Source: Desulfosudis oleivorans
GTDB taxonomy: Bacteria; Desulfobacterota; Desulfobacteria; Desulfobacterales; SURF-7
Length of the DNA: 64,000 nucleotides
Assembly: GCA_020723325.1 (NCBI GenBank)
Contig: DYJD01000030.1
Coordinates: forward strand, 1 to 64,000
Reading direction: 5' to 3'
Within the stretch, counting starts at the first letter, position 1. Each line of letters starts with the position of its first letter. The notes beneath the pieces are model-generated. The model did not search any database, was not told the DNA's origin, and saw only the letters and a program-made list of their open reading frames with translations. The position numbers and the translations under genes are program-made. Shown piece by piece: positions 37,300 to 45,329 of the stretch.

Positions 37300-37877
37300 T
37301 CGTGGAATGCCGGTATTGACCAGGACAAAAGCGGCTATAACCAAGATGGCCACCGGCAGATGGAGAAAATCTTGCAAACTCCGGAAGTCAAAAACAACAA
37401 CCAAGTTGAAACGCCGATAATCAGATAAGGCAATCTATTCCTCACGCCGCCAAGATTCATGAACATCAGCAAAAAAAAGAAAAAAACCGCTCCCTCCAGG
37501 GGGGCGAAATTCAATGAGGTTGTGTAGAAAATGGCGATGACCAATACCGCACCGATATCGTCCACAATGGCCAATGAAACCAGAAAAATCATCAAGCCCT
37601 CGTTTACCAGTTGTAAGATGGTGAAGTGTTTATTCCAGTGGCCGATTTGTATAATGATTGGAAGCTGAATGATTTTTTCATAGGCACCTTGCAAAGGTGA
37701 ATTCATCATTAGTAAGGCCGTTGTTCCGGCAAGGAAAAGCAGGATGCCGCCGACGGTCTGTCTCTGATCGAATTCCTGAAAGGGTGTCAGGAAGCGATTT
37801 AATTGCGACTCCCATGGATAATAATCCAATCCCTGGAAGGAAATGCCCTTGGCTTGGTTTTTAGTGCTTGTCATCAA
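37300..37877 (-). pseudogene. nhaA: nhaA (Na+/H+ antiporter) with internal deletions
   Basis: The frame starts normally (FLTPFQEFDQRQTVGGILLF, TALLMMNSP, LQLVNEGLMIFLV) but jumps from helix II straight to the catalytic region LAIVDDIGAVLVIAIFYTTS, losing helices III-IV. After VSTWLLFLTSGV the frame is lost, and HLPVAILVIAAFVLVNTGI, typical of a later NhaA helix, appears one frame over, now leading into the PhnD-like gene. Normal NhaA is about 390 residues with 12 helices; about half is missing. The conserved Asp pair (VDD) survives. Confidence 0.8.
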
Positions 37878-38201: not shown

Positions 38202-38693
38202 ATGATACGGCTTCGATTCTGCAAAAATTTCCGTGCATTCCCGGTTCTTCTTTTTACTTTCGTTTTATTGGCATTCGGTTGCGCAACCAATCGCCACAAT
38301 AGCCAGAATAACATCACCGGTAATTGGAAATGGACCCTGCGGGAAGGCAATACCACTGTTAAAGGGACCTCTCATTTTTACAATGACGGCAATCTGCGTC
38401 ATAACGGCAGCATTGTGGTGAGGATAGGCGACAAAATGGCCGTGTATGACTTCCGTGATTCCCTGAAATGGAAAATAGAAAACAATTATCTCATCGAACT
38501 ACCGGAGTCCATGCCGCAATTTTTCAATTTCCGAGGGGATCCCGAGGCTGTTGAAGCGGCACAAAACAATATCCGCCGCGATGAAGTCAAGGAAATAAAA
38601 TCCAAAATATTGCACTTATCCAAAGATAATTGTGTTTTGCTGATCGATCACGGCAATAACACACTGGAACTGATTCTGAGCCGGATAGACTAA
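38202..38693 (+). CDS. Small lipoprotein of unknown function
   Basis: 163 residues from the ATG at 38202. A hydrophobic leader with lipobox LAFGC is followed by an Asn-rich start and a beta-rich domain (NITGNWKWTLREGNTTVKG, FYNDGNLRHNGSIVV). The layout resembles lipocalin-like single-sheet lipoproteins, without a firm match. Probably attached to the outer membrane or periplasmic face. Its 3' end overlaps the convergent STAS gene by 4 nt. Confidence 0.72.
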   Translation: MIRLRFCKNFRAFPVLLFTFVLLAFGCATNRHNSQNNITGNWKWTLREGNTTVKGTSHFYNDGNLRHNGSIVVRIGDKMAVYDFRDSLKWKIENNYLIELPESMPQFFNFRGDPEAVEAAQNNIRRDEVKEIKSKILHLSKDNCVLLIDHGNNTLELILSRID

Positions 38694-39043
38694 TGGGAAG
38701 CAATGAAGCTTTCAAATGCTTGAATCCCTTCACCCACGGACGGCATTATCGGTAAAAAAGTGTCAAACCCGGAGATCTCAAACACTTCTTTAACATAATC
38801 CTGCATGGCGCAAAGCACCAGATGCCCTTCCGTCCGTTTCAGGTCCTTGGTGGCTTTTAAAATGATCCGCAGCCCGGCGCTGGAGATGTATTCCAGGTCT
38901 GAAAAATCCAGCAGAACCTTTTTGGCGCCGGCTTTGATGGCGCTGAAAATTTTATCCTCGAATGCGGTGGATGTATTGGAATCCAGCCGGCCCTGAATAC
39001 GGAAAATAACGATATCACTTTGTTTGGTTTCGGTGAGTTTCAT
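38690..39043 (-). CDS. STAS-domain anti-sigma factor antagonist
   Basis: 117 residues from the ATG at 39043 (AGGAGTACTG upstream). SpoIIAA-like: IVIFRIQGRLDSNTSTAFED, then LLDFSDLEYISSAGLRIILK, with Ser in the SSAG phospho-site. In partner switching the antagonist is phosphorylated by an RsbW-type kinase (the next gene upstream, 17 nt away) and reactivated by a SpoIIE/PP2C phosphatase, two of which lie at 43.2 and 49.4 kb. Confidence 0.9.
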   Translation of the reverse strand: MKLTETKQSDIVIFRIQGRLDSNTSTAFEDKIFSAIKAGAKKVLLDFSDLEYISSAGLRIILKATKDLKRTEGHLVLCAMQDYVKEVFEISGFDTFLPIMPSVGEGIQAFESFIASH

Positions 39044-39060: not shown

Positions 39061-39540
39061 TCAATCCGCGCTTGTCTTTTTCATTCCGGCAGGCAGCTTC
39101 GGCCCCTCGCCGCAGGCTAGCCCGGCTAGGCATTTTTTCATTTCCAGAATATTCACTTTTCCACAACGCCGGTAAGCCAGATGATTCATCACATGCCGGA
39201 CCAGATGGATCCCCATCCCGCCGATGGCCCGCTCCGTAAGACAGCAGGTAAGATCCGGCGGAATACATGCAAGCGGATTGAAGGCGGTGCCGGTATCCTC
39301 CATTTTGATGAATAGGTCATCGGCCTTCAGTGTAATGGAAAAGCGCACAAAATGTTCGTTGCCTTCGGCGCACCCGTAAGAAACCAGATTTGTAAAGAGT
39401 TCATCCAGGGCCAGGTTGATTTCCAGGACCGATTTGGCAGGCAGCCCGGTCCGTCGGCCGAATTCCGTGATTTTCCGATGCAAGGCATCCAATTCCTTCA
39501 TCCGGCATTTTAATTTGAATGTCAAGGATTTGTCTTTCAT
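39061..39540 (-). CDS. RsbW/SpoIIAB-like anti-sigma factor kinase
   Basis: 159 residues, HATPase_c_2. N-box region NLALDELFTNLVSYG, then IKMEDTGTAFNPL (G1) and RAIGGMGIHLVRHVMN (G2). It would bind and phosphorylate the STAS partner encoded downstream. No sigma factor gene is adjacent, so the pair may regulate another output, as in many deltaproteobacteria. Confidence 0.88.
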   Translation of the reverse strand: MKDKSLTFKLKCRMKELDALHRKITEFGRRTGLPAKSVLEINLALDELFTNLVSYGCAEGNEHFVRFSITLKADDLFIKMEDTGTAFNPLACIPPDLTCCLTERAIGGMGIHLVRHVMNHLAYRRCGKVNILEMKKCLAGLACGEGPKLPAGMKKTSAD

Positions 39541-39826: not shown

Positions 39827-40354
39827 TTATACTAGAATCGCCCCCAGTTTACCGATACATGTTTCGCATTCATCCCCGTGTTCCACCAGGAAACGTTCCT
39901 CCCAGACCCGGATGCGATCGATCATGGCTTGAATCACCTTGGGTTTCAGTTCCGGAAAGCGCTCCATGGCCAGGATGAATTTATCGCGGGTGATCATTAA
40001 AAAGCTGAGATCCGAAACCGCCCGCAGGGTATACAACTGCCGCAGTTTTCCCAGAAGCGCCAGCCCGCCCAGAAAAACTCCGGGGCCGTATTCCCGCAGG
40101 GGTTTTTCCTTGCCATGAACATTGCGAAACAGGGCCGCGGTTCCCTTTATGATGTAAAAAGCCCGATCCATCTCTTCATATTCCTGGAAAAGGGTTTCTC
40201 CGGTTTTTACGCTTTCCCGGCTGCACAGATAAGCAAAGCCCTTAATCATCTCCAGGGGCATTTGCGAGAAAAAATTGATTCCCCGCAATACCGTGAGATT
40301 TTCCTGGAATTCACAGGCCCCGCAAAGCTCATTTTTTTCCATGGACGAGTTCAT
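39827..40354 (-). CDS. Cyclic-nucleotide-binding domain protein without HTH
   Basis: 175 residues. A Crp-like beta-roll (about 20-135) with SVKTGETLFQEYEEMDRAFY and PGVFLGGLALLGKLRQLYTL, then a helix. The C-terminal DNA-binding domain of Crp is absent. CGAC near the start and CETC near the end add cysteine pairs. It overlaps the preceding ABC transporter gene by 26 nt and may be a regulatory subunit of it or a sensor for it. Confidence 0.83.
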   Translation of the reverse strand: MNSSMEKNELCGACEFQENLTVLRGINFFSQMPLEMIKGFAYLCSRESVKTGETLFQEYEEMDRAFYIIKGTAALFRNVHGKEKPLREYGPGVFLGGLALLGKLRQLYTLRAVSDLSFLMITRDKFILAMERFPELKPKVIQAMIDRIRVWEERFLVEHGDECETCIGKLGAILV

Positions 40355-42839
40355 ACAGCACCCCGTGTTTCTTCAGAAGCTCTTCATAGGCTCCTATTTC
40401 AACAATTTTGCCTGCCTTCATGACAGCGATTTTATCATATCCCTTGACAATGTCCAGCCGGTGAGCCACGGAAATAACCGTGGTATTCCCCCGCAGACGG
40501 GTTTCGATCATATTTTGAATGCGCGCCTGGGATTTATTGTCCAAGGAAGCGGTGGCTTCATCCATGAGCAACACCTTGGGCTGTTTCAAGAGCACCCGGG
40601 CCACTGCCAACTTCTGCTTTTGCCCCCCGGAAAGATTCTCGCCCTTGCTTCCGACCATAAATTGCATGCCGATTTCGATCATCTGCTCCAGCAACCCCTC
40701 CTCAATCAACAGGTGGATGATATTCCGGCCGATTTTTTCCCGCACCCATGGGGCGCTGCTCTTGAGCTTGCCATAGAGGATGTTGCTTAAAATGCTCTCG
40801 GAAAAAATATAGGTGGATAGCCGATAGAAGATAAATTCATCCGGCCGCTTTTTGTCCGCCAAATGCCTGAACTGTTGCCGGCCCTCTAAAATCCTGGTTT
40901 GCAATGCCGTGGATAAGGCGACCATCTTGTGCTTACCCGGACAGAAACGCAGCCCCAGGGTCAGCAACCGCCTGCGTTCCGCCTCTGAAAAACGCGCTGA
41001 CGACCATTCTTTTACAGATCCGAACCAGTCCTTGTAGGTGCTGAATTCCTCCATCAGAATGGGACTCTGCTCAAAGAAAACCGCTTCCAGGGGAAAGTCG
41101 CCCAGGATATCCACGGTCTGCTTTGCAAGATCAAAGCCCAGGGAGATGAGGGGCTGGAGCAATCCCGCTCTTTCCAGGAATGAAATGAACAAAGGGTCAG
41201 CGGCAAGGGCGGCCGGGTCAAGGCGCCAGATACGGGAAGCGCCGAAGATCAGGTTCTCGGCCACGCTGGAATAATAAAGATAATGGTCTTCGCTGAAAAA
41301 TTCCACATGCTGGGCCAGGTTTTCCCCAAAATCCTTTTGAAAATTATGGCGGGTGCGGATCAGCAAAGGCACCATGCTGCCGTATTTATCCGTATCCAGC
41401 ACCGCATTCAGGCCGAAATTGAGCACATCCGTAAACAAACCCACTTGCTGCAACACCGCCGCCATCTGATCCAGATGGGGCGGCGGCCCGGGCGGCCCCT
41501 GGCCGTTCTCCTTGGCAGCCCAGGAATAGAGCAGGTTGTCCTGAATGGTTCCGTCAAAAATAAACGGCGCCTGGGAAATGATGCCGATATGGTCGATGAT
41601 CTCTTTTTTAGATAGATCCGCGATCTCCCGGCCGTCCAAGCGGGCATGACCGCCGGTATATTTGAACAATTGCCCGAGGCATTGAACCAATGTGCTCTTG
41701 CCGCTGCCGGAAAAACCCACCAGGGCCAGATGCTCGCCGGGATTGAGCTCAAAGGAAACATCATCCAACAGGCGCATGCCGTCGTCGGTTGTAAAGGAAA
41801 GCCGGTCCACTGTCAGGCGCCCTGCAAAGGTCTGCCCGGACTGCTCCAGGGGCAGCAATTGAAATTCAGGCGCCCCCCGGAAATACTCCATGGTTCGCCG
41901 GTAACGCACGGCCGCATCCTGATACACCTGGTAATAATCGATCAATTCCTTCCAGGGGTCGTAGAGTTTTTCCTGGGCGGACAGAAAAGCCACCAGGGCG
42001 CCCAATTCCAGCCGGCCCCGCATGGTCAGGTAGCCGCCGATGATGAAGATCAACAAGGGGCCGATGCTGCTAAACAGGTTGTTCAGGCTTTTTACCCCGT
42101 TCATAAACATATTCCAGACAATGCGGATGCGCTGCAGTTTGATCACTATTGCGGTGTATTTGCGGTTTTCAATGGTAAAGGCGCCGTTGGCCTGGATCTC
42201 CTGGATGCCGCTCACGGCCTCGGAGATCTTGCCGGAATATTCCCGGGATACGTCCACCCGCCGTTTGTTCTGGATATTGGCACCCCGCTGCACCAGGGGC
42301 ACCAGGATCAGCACCAGCGGATAAATGGAAAGGGAAATTGCGGCCAAAAGCGGATTCAACCAAAACAGATAACCGGCAAAAGCCAGCAAGGTCAAAACAT
42401 TGACAAGGGGCGTGGCCAAGGCCATGCCGGCGAAATTCCCGGCTGTACTGAGTTCGGTGAGCAGAAAGGAGACCACGGTGCCGGGCTGGGATTTGCGGAA
42501 AAAGATAAGGGGCAGAACCAGGATATGCTCGAACAGGGCCATGCGCATGTTTTTCAAGGCGCGTTCGCTGATGACCGCCTGCAATACGTTGATCAAATAT
42601 TTCATGATATTGGAAACGATGATGGCTGAAAGGTAAATTCCGCAATAATAGGCCAATAGGTCTATCTGTCGGAATTTAATGGCTTCGTTTACAATGCGTT
42701 TCTGCATTTCCAAAGGCACCACCCGGGCGGCCACGGCGATCATGATGACGCCGAACAACAGGGCCTGCAGTTTGCCGTTGGAGGCCAGGGCCCATGATGT
42801 CATGGATTTTTCATATACCGGGGTTTTCTTTTCAGCCAT
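40329..42839 (-). CDS. ABC exporter with greatly expanded nucleotide-binding domain
   Basis: 836 residues from the ATG at 42839 (GAAGAGGG upstream). The type-1 exporter membrane domain covers about 20-315. The NBD has Walker A GFSGSGKS at 375-382, Q-loop Gln423, signature LSGGQ at 736-740, Walker B VLLMDE at 756-761 and switch His793. The distance from Q-loop to signature is about 310 residues instead of 50-60. The extra 250 residues contain two further Q-loop/helical-subdomain-like units and a degenerate signature (ARFSEAERRRLLTLGLRF). The overlap with the cyclic-nucleotide-binding gene suggests a joint complex. Substrate unknown. Confidence 0.87.
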   Translation of the reverse strand: MAEKKTPVYEKSMTSWALASNGKLQALLFGVIMIAVAARVVPLEMQKRIVNEAIKFRQIDLLAYYCGIYLSAIIVSNIMKYLINVLQAVISERALKNMRMALFEHILVLPLIFFRKSQPGTVVSFLLTELSTAGNFAGMALATPLVNVLTLLAFAGYLFWLNPLLAAISLSIYPLVLILVPLVQRGANIQNKRRVDVSREYSGKISEAVSGIQEIQANGAFTIENRKYTAIVIKLQRIRIVWNMFMNGVKSLNNLFSSIGPLLIFIIGGYLTMRGRLELGALVAFLSAQEKLYDPWKELIDYYQVYQDAAVRYRRTMEYFRGAPEFQLLPLEQSGQTFAGRLTVDRLSFTTDDGMRLLDDVSFELNPGEHLALVGFSGSGKSTLVQCLGQLFKYTGGHARLDGREIADLSKKEIIDHIGIISQAPFIFDGTIQDNLLYSWAAKENGQGPPGPPPHLDQMAAVLQQVGLFTDVLNFGLNAVLDTDKYGSMVPLLIRTRHNFQKDFGENLAQHVEFFSEDHYLYYSSVAENLIFGASRIWRLDPAALAADPLFISFLERAGLLQPLISLGFDLAKQTVDILGDFPLEAVFFEQSPILMEEFSTYKDWFGSVKEWSSARFSEAERRRLLTLGLRFCPGKHKMVALSTALQTRILEGRQQFRHLADKKRPDEFIFYRLSTYIFSESILSNILYGKLKSSAPWVREKIGRNIIHLLIEEGLLEQMIEIGMQFMVGSKGENLSGGQKQKLAVARVLLKQPKVLLMDEATASLDNKSQARIQNMIETRLRGNTTVISVAHRLDIVKGYDKIAVMKAGKIVEIGAYEELLKKHGVLYELVHGKK

Positions 42840-43196: not shown

Positions 43197-45329
43197 ATGC
43201 GCTACCAGTGGAAGCTCTTGCTGTTGATGCTCACCGTTTCCATCCTGCCTTTGCTCATGATGCGCAGCGTGGGCCTGAACATGGTCCGCAAGATGGGCGA
43301 CAATTTTGCGGGACGTTCCTGTAAACTGCTCACTGAAAACGCCGAGCGCCAGCTTAAAAGCCTGGTGGATGACTATACCGCCCTCATTTGGCGGGGCCGG
43401 GAACTGTATGAGGCCGCCCTCATGTACCAGGCCGCGGCTGCGGAACAATGCCTTTCAGAACCGCCCCCTGCATCAGCCCCGATCTTTTTCACGGAAGATT
43501 TTGAGACTGGCAAAGGCCCGCCCCCAGGGGATGCGGAGCCTTCCTTGATCCATTTGCGATGGGAGCAAGACCGTCCTTCAGAGGCCCTTACCATATCTTA
43601 CGGCCACCAAGCGTTTAAACCTGCGCCGGGTCAAAATCGGGAAGCAGCCCTGCCCCAAGCCCGACGCCTTGCAGCCATGCTCCCCAATTATCAGCGCATA
43701 TACCGGTTGATGCAAGAGCGGCGCCTGTTTTGGCAGCATATCGCCCTTGCCGGCGGGCTCTTCAGCACCTATCCCGCCGCCGGCAGGCTGGCCGCCGACC
43801 TGGACCCCCGGGAACTTCCCTGGTATCAAGGAGCCCTGGAGCAATCCAAGGAAATCTGGACCGCCCCTTATGTGGATCCGGCCACTCATCAGATCGTGCT
43901 GGCAGTATCGACCCCTATTAAAACCCAGAGCGGAACCATACTCGGAGTGACCGCCCTGGTAATTCCAGCCAATTCGCTCTTGGAAAACGAACGCTTGTTG
44001 CAGAACATCCCGCCGGGGACACATTCTTTTATGACCTATCTTGCCCAGCGGCCGGATACCGGACAAAAAGGCCTGGCGGTTCTGTCCAGCAGCGGCAATA
44101 CTCCTCAAGCCAAACCGACCTTGATCCCGCTGATGAGCCGTTGGCTGACCTCGGATGATGCCGACCAATGGCAGGCTCTTTTGAATGATTGCACCATTGG
44201 CGTCAGCCGAATCCGCCGTCTCTCCTATGAAGGCCGGGATTGCATGTGGGCCTATGGCCCTTTGAGCAACCGTTCCCATTTGGTGCTCATTTCGCCCTAC
44301 GAAGAAATCCTGAAACCGGCCCATCTGTCCGACCAATATGTCAAGGCCCAGATCGACCGGGTTGTAACCATCACCGGTATTGTCATCCTCATCCTGGTAG
44401 GCATTGTCTTTTTTCTCTCCCTGACCTTTGCCCGCACTGTCACCAAACCCATCCGCACCCTGGAAAAGGGCGCCCTGCTGCTGGCCGAAGGCGATTTCAA
44501 TGCCAGGGTGGCCATCCACTCCAACGACGAGTTCGGTCGCATGGGCCAGGTGTTCAACCAGGTGGGGCCGCAATTGCAGGAACATTACCGCATGCGGCAT
44601 GCCCTGTCCTTGGCCATGGAGGTCCAGCAGAATCTGTTGCCCAAAACCCTGCCGGTCATCGCCGGACTGGATATTGCCGGCGCCAGTGTTTACTGCGACG
44701 AAACCGGGGGGGATTATTACGATTTTTTGACCAGGGACGACCAGCCAAAGTCTTTGGCGGTGGTGGTGGGGGATGTTTCCGGCCACGGTCTGCCTTCTGC
44801 CTTGCTGATGGCCGCGGCCCGGGCGCTTTTGCGGCAACGCTATGCCCTGGAAGGAACCTTGTCCCAGGTCATTACTGATGTGAACCGCATGTTTTCAAAA
44901 GATGTGGCAGACAGCGGCCGCTTCCTGACCCTGTTTTTTTGCGAAATCCGGCCTGGCAGCCGGTCCATCGCCTGGGTCAATGCCGGTCATGATCCGGCCC
45001 TGCTGTATGACGCCCCAACCGACCGGTTCGAGGAGTTGGCCGGCAAAAGCCTGCCCCTGGGTGTGAATGCAGCCGGTTTTTATCCTGAATCCAGCCGTTC
45101 CCTGGACAACGGCCGGCTCCTTGCCATTGGAACCGACGGAATCTGGGAAACCCGCAATCCGGCAGGGGAAATGTTCGGCAAGGAGCGCTTCAGAGCCCTC
45201 ATCCGCACCCATGCCCATTTCCCGGCCGACGCCATTTTACAGGCTATCATAGCCGCCGTTGATGAATTCCGTGGCCCCCAGTCAACTGAAGACGATATCA
45301 CCTTGATTGTCGTTAAGGCGTGTTGGTGA
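43197..45329 (+). CDS. SpoIIE-type PP2C phosphatase with Cache-like sensor and HAMP
   Basis: 710 residues. TM1 is at about 6-25, a large periplasmic sensor of about 350 residues follows (Cache-like, with DLDPRELPWYQGALE, IWTAPYVDPATHQIVLAVST), then TM2 at about 385-407, HAMP at 407-460 and a SpoIIE phosphatase at about 480-707 (LDIAGASVYCDETGGDYYDF, VGDVSGHGLPSALLM, GTDGIWETRN, EDDITLIVVK). It dephosphorylates STAS antagonists in response to a periplasmic signal. The last codons KACW differ from the duplicate copy (KVA), so its 3' end was rewritten at the island junction. GAGGAG precedes the ATG. Confidence 0.9.
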   Translation: MRYQWKLLLLMLTVSILPLLMMRSVGLNMVRKMGDNFAGRSCKLLTENAERQLKSLVDDYTALIWRGRELYEAALMYQAAAAEQCLSEPPPASAPIFFTEDFETGKGPPPGDAEPSLIHLRWEQDRPSEALTISYGHQAFKPAPGQNREAALPQARRLAAMLPNYQRIYRLMQERRLFWQHIALAGGLFSTYPAAGRLAADLDPRELPWYQGALEQSKEIWTAPYVDPATHQIVLAVSTPIKTQSGTILGVTALVIPANSLLENERLLQNIPPGTHSFMTYLAQRPDTGQKGLAVLSSSGNTPQAKPTLIPLMSRWLTSDDADQWQALLNDCTIGVSRIRRLSYEGRDCMWAYGPLSNRSHLVLISPYEEILKPAHLSDQYVKAQIDRVVTITGIVILILVGIVFFLSLTFARTVTKPIRTLEKGALLLAEGDFNARVAIHSNDEFGRMGQVFNQVGPQLQEHYRMRHALSLAMEVQQNLLPKTLPVIAGLDIAGASVYCDETGGDYYDFLTRDDQPKSLAVVVGDVSGHGLPSALLMAAARALLRQRYALEGTLSQVITDVNRMFSKDVADSGRFLTLFFCEIRPGSRSIAWVNAGHDPALLYDAPTDRFEELAGKSLPLGVNAAGFYPESSRSLDNGRLLAIGTDGIWETRNPAGEMFGKERFRALIRTHAHFPADAILQAIIAAVDEFRGPQSTEDDITLIVVKACW
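45017..45318 (+). repeat. Left 302-bp direct repeat bounding the island
   Basis: Aligns without gaps to 49122-49423. By hand count, there are 10 mismatches in the first 108 nt and none in the last 194 nt (45125-45318 versus 49230-49423). It is the 3' end of the SpoIIE phosphatase gene. Just after this block the two copies diverge completely. Confidence 0.95.

Follow-up and report, generated by a model that had tools for sequence, protein, structure and literature searches.

Evidence for three tandem copies of the ABC-alpha subdomain in a half-exporter of Desulfobacterota and for its association with a cyclic-nucleotide-binding-fold partner

The window analysed here, a stretch of 64,000 nucleotides from Desulfosudis oleivorans (assembly GCA_020723325.1, contig DYJD01000030.1, positions 1 to 64,000), encodes an ATP-binding cassette (ABC) half-exporter whose nucleotide-binding domain (NBD) holds a long insert between the Q-loop and the signature motif. 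Judging from sequence profiles, this insert is made of tandem copies of the ABC-alpha (helical) subdomain, three copies being present in all. In ABC proteins this subdomain links ATP binding to movement and normally occurs once per NBD. The copies, termed modules 1 to 3, and the other parts of the protein were located as follows.

40329 to 42839, minus strand: ABC half-exporter of 836 amino acids with PF00664 and PF00005, ABC-alpha subdomain tripled by profile comparison (open reading frame and Pfam)
41850 to 42782, minus strand: transmembrane domain, residues about 20-330 (PF00664 at residues 47-288 and helices in the model)
41691 to 41717, minus strand: Walker A GFSGSGKST, residues 375-383 (motif)
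41319 to 41606, minus strand: module 1, residues 412-507 (profiles and model)
40848 to 41327, minus strand: module 2, residues 505-664 (profiles and structural second look)
40929 to 41108, minus strand: helical insertion of about 60 residues in module 2, residues 578-637
40860 to 40916, minus strand: probable degenerate signature helix of module 2, LSTALQTRILEGRQQFRHL, residues 642-660 (end points of the VIA alignments and hhalign comparison of modules 2 and 3)
40575 to 40850, minus strand: module 3, residues 664-755 (profiles)
40620 to 40634, minus strand: signature motif LSGGQ, residues 736-740 (motif)
40551 to 40571, minus strand: Walker B LLMDEAT, residues 757-763 (motif)

The protein has the full set of ATPase motifs (Walker A, Q-loop Gln423, LSGGQ, Walker B and H-loop His793), the Q-loop Gln being found in module 1 only and LSGGQ in module 3 only. 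Module 1 contains Gln423, the stretch PFIFDGTIQDN and a signature-like helix (residues 489-504, with R497) devoid of LSGGQ; module 2 contains YLYYSSVAEN and the degenerate signature helix with R654; module 3 contains YIFSESILSN, VGSKGENLSGGQ and the real signature helix with R748. The transmembrane domain is that of a type IV ABC exporter, as indicated by a PF00664 match above the cut-off (E = 2e-24) and by structural matching.

The spacing between Walker A and the signature was 361 residues, against 104 in all 19 scorable unrelated exporters, which leaves 257 extra residues. The control set comprised 25 unrelated exporters from the same order or genome, 21-28% identical to the window protein; only those with a recognisable SGG signature were scored, and six without this motif (L161, L162, L163, L177, L179 and L003), perhaps degenerate heterodimer partners, were left out of the count. 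The original prediction, made from the letters of the window alone, had placed about 250 extra residues between Gln423 and LSGGQ at 736, and both the positions and the size of the insert agree with these data. It had also read three segments of this region as versions of one unit, produced by internal duplication of part of the NBD.

Both of these proposals were borne out by profile comparisons. An alignment of 55 homologues (A1) supplied the unit profiles, which were compared by hhalign; because pairwise E-values of this kind are rough, column shuffles were added as a control. The profiles matched each other (units 1 and 2, E = 4e-7; 1 and 3, E = 2e-6; 2 and 3, E = 5e-12), and none of 100 column shuffles reached the score of any pair. 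In a self-scan of 595 pairs of non-overlapping 80-residue segments, the first pair lying off the module offsets (a fit being a deviation of at most 6 from the landmark offsets) ranked 49th. Profiles built from seven alphaproteobacterial homologues only (Sinorhizobium meliloti 2011, S. medicae and the split copy of S. meliloti R11 being left out) gave E-values of 7e-8, 4e-7 and 1.5e-10, with none of 40 shuffles reaching the score in each case. Homologues lacking internal similarity were not seen in the profiles of either 55 or seven sequences.

The identity of the repeated unit was indicated by a profile of the 19 unrelated exporters, running from the Q-loop strand to the signature helix. It matched module 1 (E = 8e-16), module 3 (E = 3e-24) and module 2 (E = 3e-7 without the 60-residue insertion, 5e-6 with it), and 0 of 60 shuffles reached the score for each of the three; its match to the alphaproteobacterial module 2 was weak (E = 1e-4, probability 55%). 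Compared with solved structures, the unit 3 profile matched 26 sequences, namely 25 ABC proteins and one S-layer protein, with just two matches, both ABCB19, under an E-value of 0.001; the two alignments inspected fell on the TIxENIxxG stretch, and one entry of this list labelled 'transport protein', 2ghi, appears as MDR2 in the structural second look. The unit 2 profile matched PglK at the expected place with E = 0.13, and one of its three structure matches, Csy1, was unrelated. An unrelated fused domain was rejected on the profile evidence, with weaker structural support.

Once the module 2 insertion was removed, modules 1 and 2 (E = 5.5e-8) and modules 2 and 3 (E = 4e-9) aligned through the signature helix, with R497, R654 and R748 in corresponding places, and modules 1 and 3 aligned just to the loop before this helix (E = 2e-6). 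These three Arg residues, together with N435, N529 and N686, were identical in 55 of 55 A1 rows and in all eight alphaproteobacterial sequences aligned. Within A1, the spacing from Asn to Arg was 63-65 in module 1 (40 of 55 rows), 125 in module 2 (47 of 55) and 62 in module 3 (53 of 55); the alphaproteobacterial module 1 was longer, with a spacing of 96-100. Since the alignments extend through the signature helix and the Asn and Arg landmarks are conserved, the unit most likely runs from the Q-loop strand to the signature helix and thus corresponds to the whole ABC-alpha subdomain. The helical insertion of module 2 was also present in the three alphaproteobacterial homologues aligned for it.

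The degenerate signature helix was placed differently from the original prediction, which had located it in ARFSEAERRRLLTLGLRF (residues 615-632). Shuffles of short helices were by themselves undecisive: in comparisons with the real signature helix, the score was reached by 2 of 100 shuffles for the stretch 605-640, by 5 for 632-668 and by 41 for the module 1 helix (478-512), the latter being reached by none of 100 when compared with the module 2 helix. The structural second look and the profile alignment both favoured residues 642-660, and on structural grounds this position is more likely than 615-632.

The full AlphaFold2 model had a mean pLDDT (predicted local distance difference test) of 82.8, with values of mostly 80-95 in the insert. 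It superposed on the NBDs of ComA (3vx4_A, 239 of 239 residues, 1.5 A) and TAP1 (2ixe_A, 248 of 251 residues, 1.8 A), so in the model one canonical NBD is complete and the two further helical modules and the 60-residue insertion are additions to it. The insert modelled alone (residues 484-735) gave a pLDDT of 90 and a pTM (predicted template modelling score) of 0.86. A second look at this insert with VIA-align 2 ranked NBD helical subdomains highest: those of CFTR NBD1 (5tfi, Z 4.4, 2.4 A, 72 residues, chain 494-565), TAP1 (2ixg, Z 4.1, 2.9 A, 75 residues) and MsbA (7ndf, Z 3.7, 2.8 A, 75 residues, chain 424-498), all with Z below 5. All three alignments end in module 2, at residue 659 of the protein (insert residue 176); if the last residues are matched without gaps, R654 would presumably fall on CFTR R560 and MsbA R493, the signature-helix Arg. 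The weight of such low-Z matches in the model comes from their agreement with the sequence mapping.

The original prediction had gone one step further and proposed a possible built-in pseudo-NBD, that is, a duplicated and decayed second NBD. A degenerate signature helix does follow module 2, but no motif of a second RecA core with Walker A or B remnants was read in residues 445-735, where only the ABC-alpha subdomain is repeated, and a profile of residues 570-660 compared with the real signature and Walker B part gave a probability of 0.5%, a score reached by 29 of 100 shuffles. The missing Walker motifs and this negative test rule out a full pseudo-NBD and make a decayed one extremely improbable.

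At family level, 2 of 12 genomes contained the insert (source genome counted); the figures were 76 of 291 for the order, some copies being fragments, and 28 of 395 for the phylum. An assembly or translation artefact was rejected on account of its presence in these genomes of the order and in another phylum. Of 261 candidate stretches in the named collection, 106 were relatives, from which 80 named loci were kept; all bore Desulfobacterota or Deltaproteobacteria-type names, save one short contig labelled Aminicenantes (L115). When the transmembrane and N-terminal NBD part served as query against 116 genomes, matches of at least 44% identity had an open frame of at least 776 residues, except for three fragments, of which two lie at contig ends and one contains a stop, and the next matches were exporters at 21-28% identity; no close relative free of the insert was thus seen in these genomes. 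Broken or truncated ABC copies (L072 and L071) were observed in two genomes (G064 and G159) that also hold a full-length copy.

Outside Desulfobacterota, the window insert matched 241 records of a plasmid collection, all from Hyphomicrobiales genera, at 26-28% identity in the 10 of 241 matches listed. The UR115 stretch used as query matched 257 records, adding Azospirillum and Ruegeria, at 21-37% identity in the 40 of 257 matches listed, UR115 itself apart. No relative was found in the viral contig collection. The occurrence of three copies in two phyla may reflect either common descent or an old transfer.

Eight alphaproteobacterial sequences were compared (L182, L183 and L187-L192), of which two are from S. 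meliloti strains; the S. medicae sequence was aligned elsewhere and is not among them. Each of the eight keeps all six module landmarks but has no GK(S/T), no Q-loop Gln, no Asp-Glu pair in Walker B and no His at the aligned H-loop position. By contrast, Lys381, Gln423, SGGQ, Asp760, Glu761 and His793 were invariant in the 55 A1 rows. Single residues persist: UR115 still has a Lys in Walker A and, after Asn, a Glu; in Ruegeria the Walker B Asp remains and a His stands at the position after the aligned one; Mesorhizobium retains LTGGQ. The alphaproteobacterial homologues therefore lack the ATPase motif set of an exporter, and the ABC_tran score was under the Pfam cut-off in Azospirillum B510 and Ruegeria AD91A. 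They formed one group with a support of 1.0 in a FastTree phylogeny of the shared core, built with no outgroup, which leaves the direction of change unset. ATP hydrolysis has probably been lost in Alphaproteobacteria, with only a sensing or gating role kept; since the modules were kept where the ATPase residues were lost, they would do something besides hydrolysis.

All seven alphaproteobacterial copies with readable context have a partner of the cyclic-nucleotide-binding (CNB) fold, either adjacent or fused. In Mesorhizobium, Rhizobium NXC14, Shinella and S. meliloti R28, the CNB gene directly follows the ABC gene, which is preceded by three glycosyltransferase genes; in UR115, Azospirillum B510 and Ruegeria AD91A, the ABC protein itself carries a CNB domain as a C-terminal fusion. 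Six of these seven CNBs retain the phosphate-binding cassette Glu, which is replaced by Asp in Ruegeria. The S. meliloti CNB protein matched TIGR03896 (E = 1e-12) at 47.8 bits, below the cut-off of 161.05, and the CNB protein of the window had no TIGR03896 match among those listed. Where annotated at all, the alphaproteobacterial homologues are described as ABC transporter ATP-binding or transmembrane-domain proteins. One homologue lies on pSymB of S. meliloti 2011; it forms one open frame there and in R28, and the R11 copy is split over two frames (L180:7242-10011). The accessible part of a Clr transcriptome paper (PMC5498481), in which the pSymB locus was sought without its locus tag, contained nothing recognisable as this locus.

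In the window, four further genes surround the ABC gene.

39827 to 40354, minus strand: CNB-fold protein of 175 amino acids (PF00027, E = 2.6e-15)
39061 to 39540, minus strand: HATPase_c_2 kinase-type (RsbW-like) protein of 159 amino acids (PF13581, E = 5.5e-22)
38690 to 39043, minus strand: STAS-domain protein (PF01740, E = 2.9e-23)
43197 to 45329, plus strand: divergent SpoIIE-type PP2C phosphatase with a Cache-type stretch and HAMP (PF07228, E = 8e-47)

The order is thus ABC, CNB, HATPase_c_2 and STAS, with the phosphatase gene upstream on the opposite strand. The first 26 bases of the CNB gene, start codon included, overlap the end of the ABC gene, and the start of the STAS protein, whose reading frame is open to 39268, was set at the Met where conservation begins. 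The STAS protein exceeded the cut-off of the anti-sigma factor antagonist superfamily TIGR00377 (85.4 bits against 53.45), and ISSAGLR occurs in the STAS consensus. The HATPase protein exceeded that of PF13581 (78.6 against 27.4) and stayed below those of RsbW and SpoIIAB (22.5 and 22.6 bits against 145 and 135).

Clustering placed a CNB gene next to the ABC gene in 76 of 80 named loci. The original prediction had asked whether such a gene is always adjacent; the link was confirmed, with fusion in three alphaproteobacterial proteins, but it is not without exception. Searches with the window genes in the 73 loci with room downstream (seven with less than 2.5 kb were left out) recovered CNB in 69, STAS in 62 and HATPase in 57. 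A SpoIIE-like reading frame was found within 28 of the 80 loci, whose lengths are unequal, and the phosphatase is possibly part of the system. Among the loci with no CNB gene next door, L105, L120 and L155 adjoin a convergent Na+/Ca2+ exchanger gene (PF01699) and L083 adjoins a PF04199 gene. In a divergent clade of Desulfobacterota, 8 of the 11 copies had CNB beside them, and neither HATPase nor STAS was matched next to any of the 11; two of the three copies lacking CNB have less than 0.8 kb downstream (L065 and L067) and the third (L066) has room. Because this clade has CNB and neither of the other two, CNB looks like the older partner. Two side observations concern the wider neighbourhood: a convergent gene pair recurs in 42-43 of the 80 loci, at a median of about 1.5-1.9 kb downstream of the ABC gene (e.g. 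L093:3225-4518), one gene encoding a PqqD domain and the other a protein of about 300 amino acids with no Pfam match above the cut-off in the member tested; and a reading frame with a partial NhaA-type Na+/H+ antiporter domain, perhaps a remnant, lies at 37335-37877 of the window.

Taken together, these data suggest, at about an even chance, that the surplus modules serve the CNB and STAS partners as surfaces for docking and regulation, a platform that would pass the state of the partners to NBD closure. Such a cytoplasmic platform would be formed on each half of a homodimer; the CNB protein would sit on it, and its state would pass through the modules to NBD closure. In the main branch of Desulfobacterota, the STAS protein would be a second input, set by the kinase-type partner, with the SpoIIE-type phosphatase gene often nearby. 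By analogy, it would probably dock on an ABC-alpha surface as MlaB does on MlaF: according to PMC7367683, MlaB sits centred on the helical subdomain of MlaF, with a phosphosite in the interface. The combination of a multiplied ABC-alpha subdomain with CNB and, in one branch, STAS and kinase-type partners fits this idea.

Several observations weigh against the docking proposal. Docking is deduced from gene order and fusion. Four of the 80 named loci have no CNB gene next door. In the Desulfobacterota CNB proteins, the cassette Glu was absent from at least 93 of 95 rows (the window gene being counted twice), and is Gly in the window protein, which thus lacks this mark of cAMP binding; the cassette Arg column was Arg in 79 of 95 rows. 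Owing to the loss of this Glu, the Desulfobacterota CNB proteins may bind no cyclic nucleotide. On the structural side, Foldseek returned no match under E = 1.4 for the insert model, and the VIA-align 2 list has an unrelated designed protein in fourth rank, Z values below 5 being common according to the tool itself. An unrelated fold of the inserted region is not indicated, given that NBD helical subdomains came out on top, but this part of the evidence is weaker than the profiles. Finally, sequence scores fail to tell which module sits in the canonical place: an NBD closed with module 1 and one closed with module 3 differed little in their scores against solved NBDs (299.3 and 300.5 bits for the highest-scoring chain).

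This last result would suit a module exchange: module 1 and module 3 would vie for the canonical place, and the partners, by favouring one or the other, would turn the ATPase on or off. Similarity, however, shows only common origin and gives no evidence of two conformations, and several P-glycoprotein chains, too, scored a few bits better with the module 1 closure; such an exchange is judged very improbable. The modules could also be structural, lengthening the NBD interface and holding the NBDs of the homodimer together or apart, with CNB acting elsewhere, for example on the transmembrane domain. The prediction of the insert alone as one compact unit and its retention in the four loci without a CNB neighbour speak for this explanation, which nevertheless seems unlikely because the recurrent adjacency of CNB and its fusion in three proteins make a shared role likely. 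Less likely still is the view that the family consists mainly of membrane signalling or gating proteins built on an exporter, the ATPase-dead alphaproteobacterial forms showing the main use. All eight of these have intact module landmarks and have lost the catalytic residues named above, and CNB partners, mostly with the cassette Glu, occur in every readable context; yet the catalytic residues are invariant in A1, and the position of four rhizobial copies after three glycosyltransferase genes suits an export or polymer role.

Compared with known systems, the protein shares with type IV ABC half-exporters (MsbA, TM287/288, SAV1866, TAP, P-glycoprotein) the PF00664 domain and a complete NBD, and full-exporter chains superposed on the model with Z of about 30 over 425-453 residues among the matches listed; it differs from them in the Walker A-signature spacing given above and in the three ABC-alpha copies. 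No NCBIfam cut-off was reached by the ABC protein among the 25 of 188 matches listed, the scores being 291.1 bits for MsbA (TIGR02203, cut-off 602) and 245.3 bits for NHLM_micro_ABC2 (TIGR03797, cut-off 709.4), and a weak PF02463 match (31.2 bits) was under the cut-off of 40. PADLOC matches, given with no stated cut-off, fell in the ATPase part (mad3, mad8, AriA) or in the CNB part (Pycsar effectors), all generic domains. In Rad50/SMC ATPases, the comparison to which the weak PF02463 match belongs, a long insertion likewise separates the Walker A half from the signature half; it is a coiled coil there, against compact ABC-alpha repeats here. MlaF-MlaB resembles the present system in that a small STAS protein works with an ABC ATPase, but MlaF, a component of an MCE transport system, has a single helical subdomain, and the STAS contact proposed here is putative. 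In UvrA and Ecm16, an NBD insertion domain links the binding of another molecule to the ATPase, according to PMC10192343; these are likewise ABC ATPases with an NBD insertion, theirs being DNA-binding and not extra ABC-alpha copies. TIGR03896, a bacteriocin-type transport-associated family, similarly ties a CNB protein to transport, with a different transporter family. The kinase-type HATPase, the STAS protein with ISSAGLR and the nearby PP2C phosphatase recall SpoIIE/RsbW/STAS partner switching, from which the present operon differs by its ABC exporter and CNB gene; no gene for a sigma factor was noticed in the partly annotated list of conserved neighbour clusters from the 80 named loci. Literature searches on the architecture, operon, locus and analogues, which left most subscription journals outside, showed no paper describing the architecture among the results listed.

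Post-translational regulation of ABC transporters is described as poorly understood in PMC7367683. A broader possibility, which we hold to be rather improbable as a whole, is that ABC-alpha is a reusable docking and switching module: input from CNB (and, in one branch, from STAS, kinase and phosphatase) would exchange or shift the three modules, two of which could by sequence complete the catalytic NBD, and so gate the transporter, the ATPase-dead alphaproteobacterial form being a membrane protein controlled by cyclic nucleotides. The retention of three ABC-alpha copies despite the loss of ATPase residues would separate the roles of this subdomain from catalysis, and the homologue on pSymB of S. 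meliloti 2011 makes the question testable.

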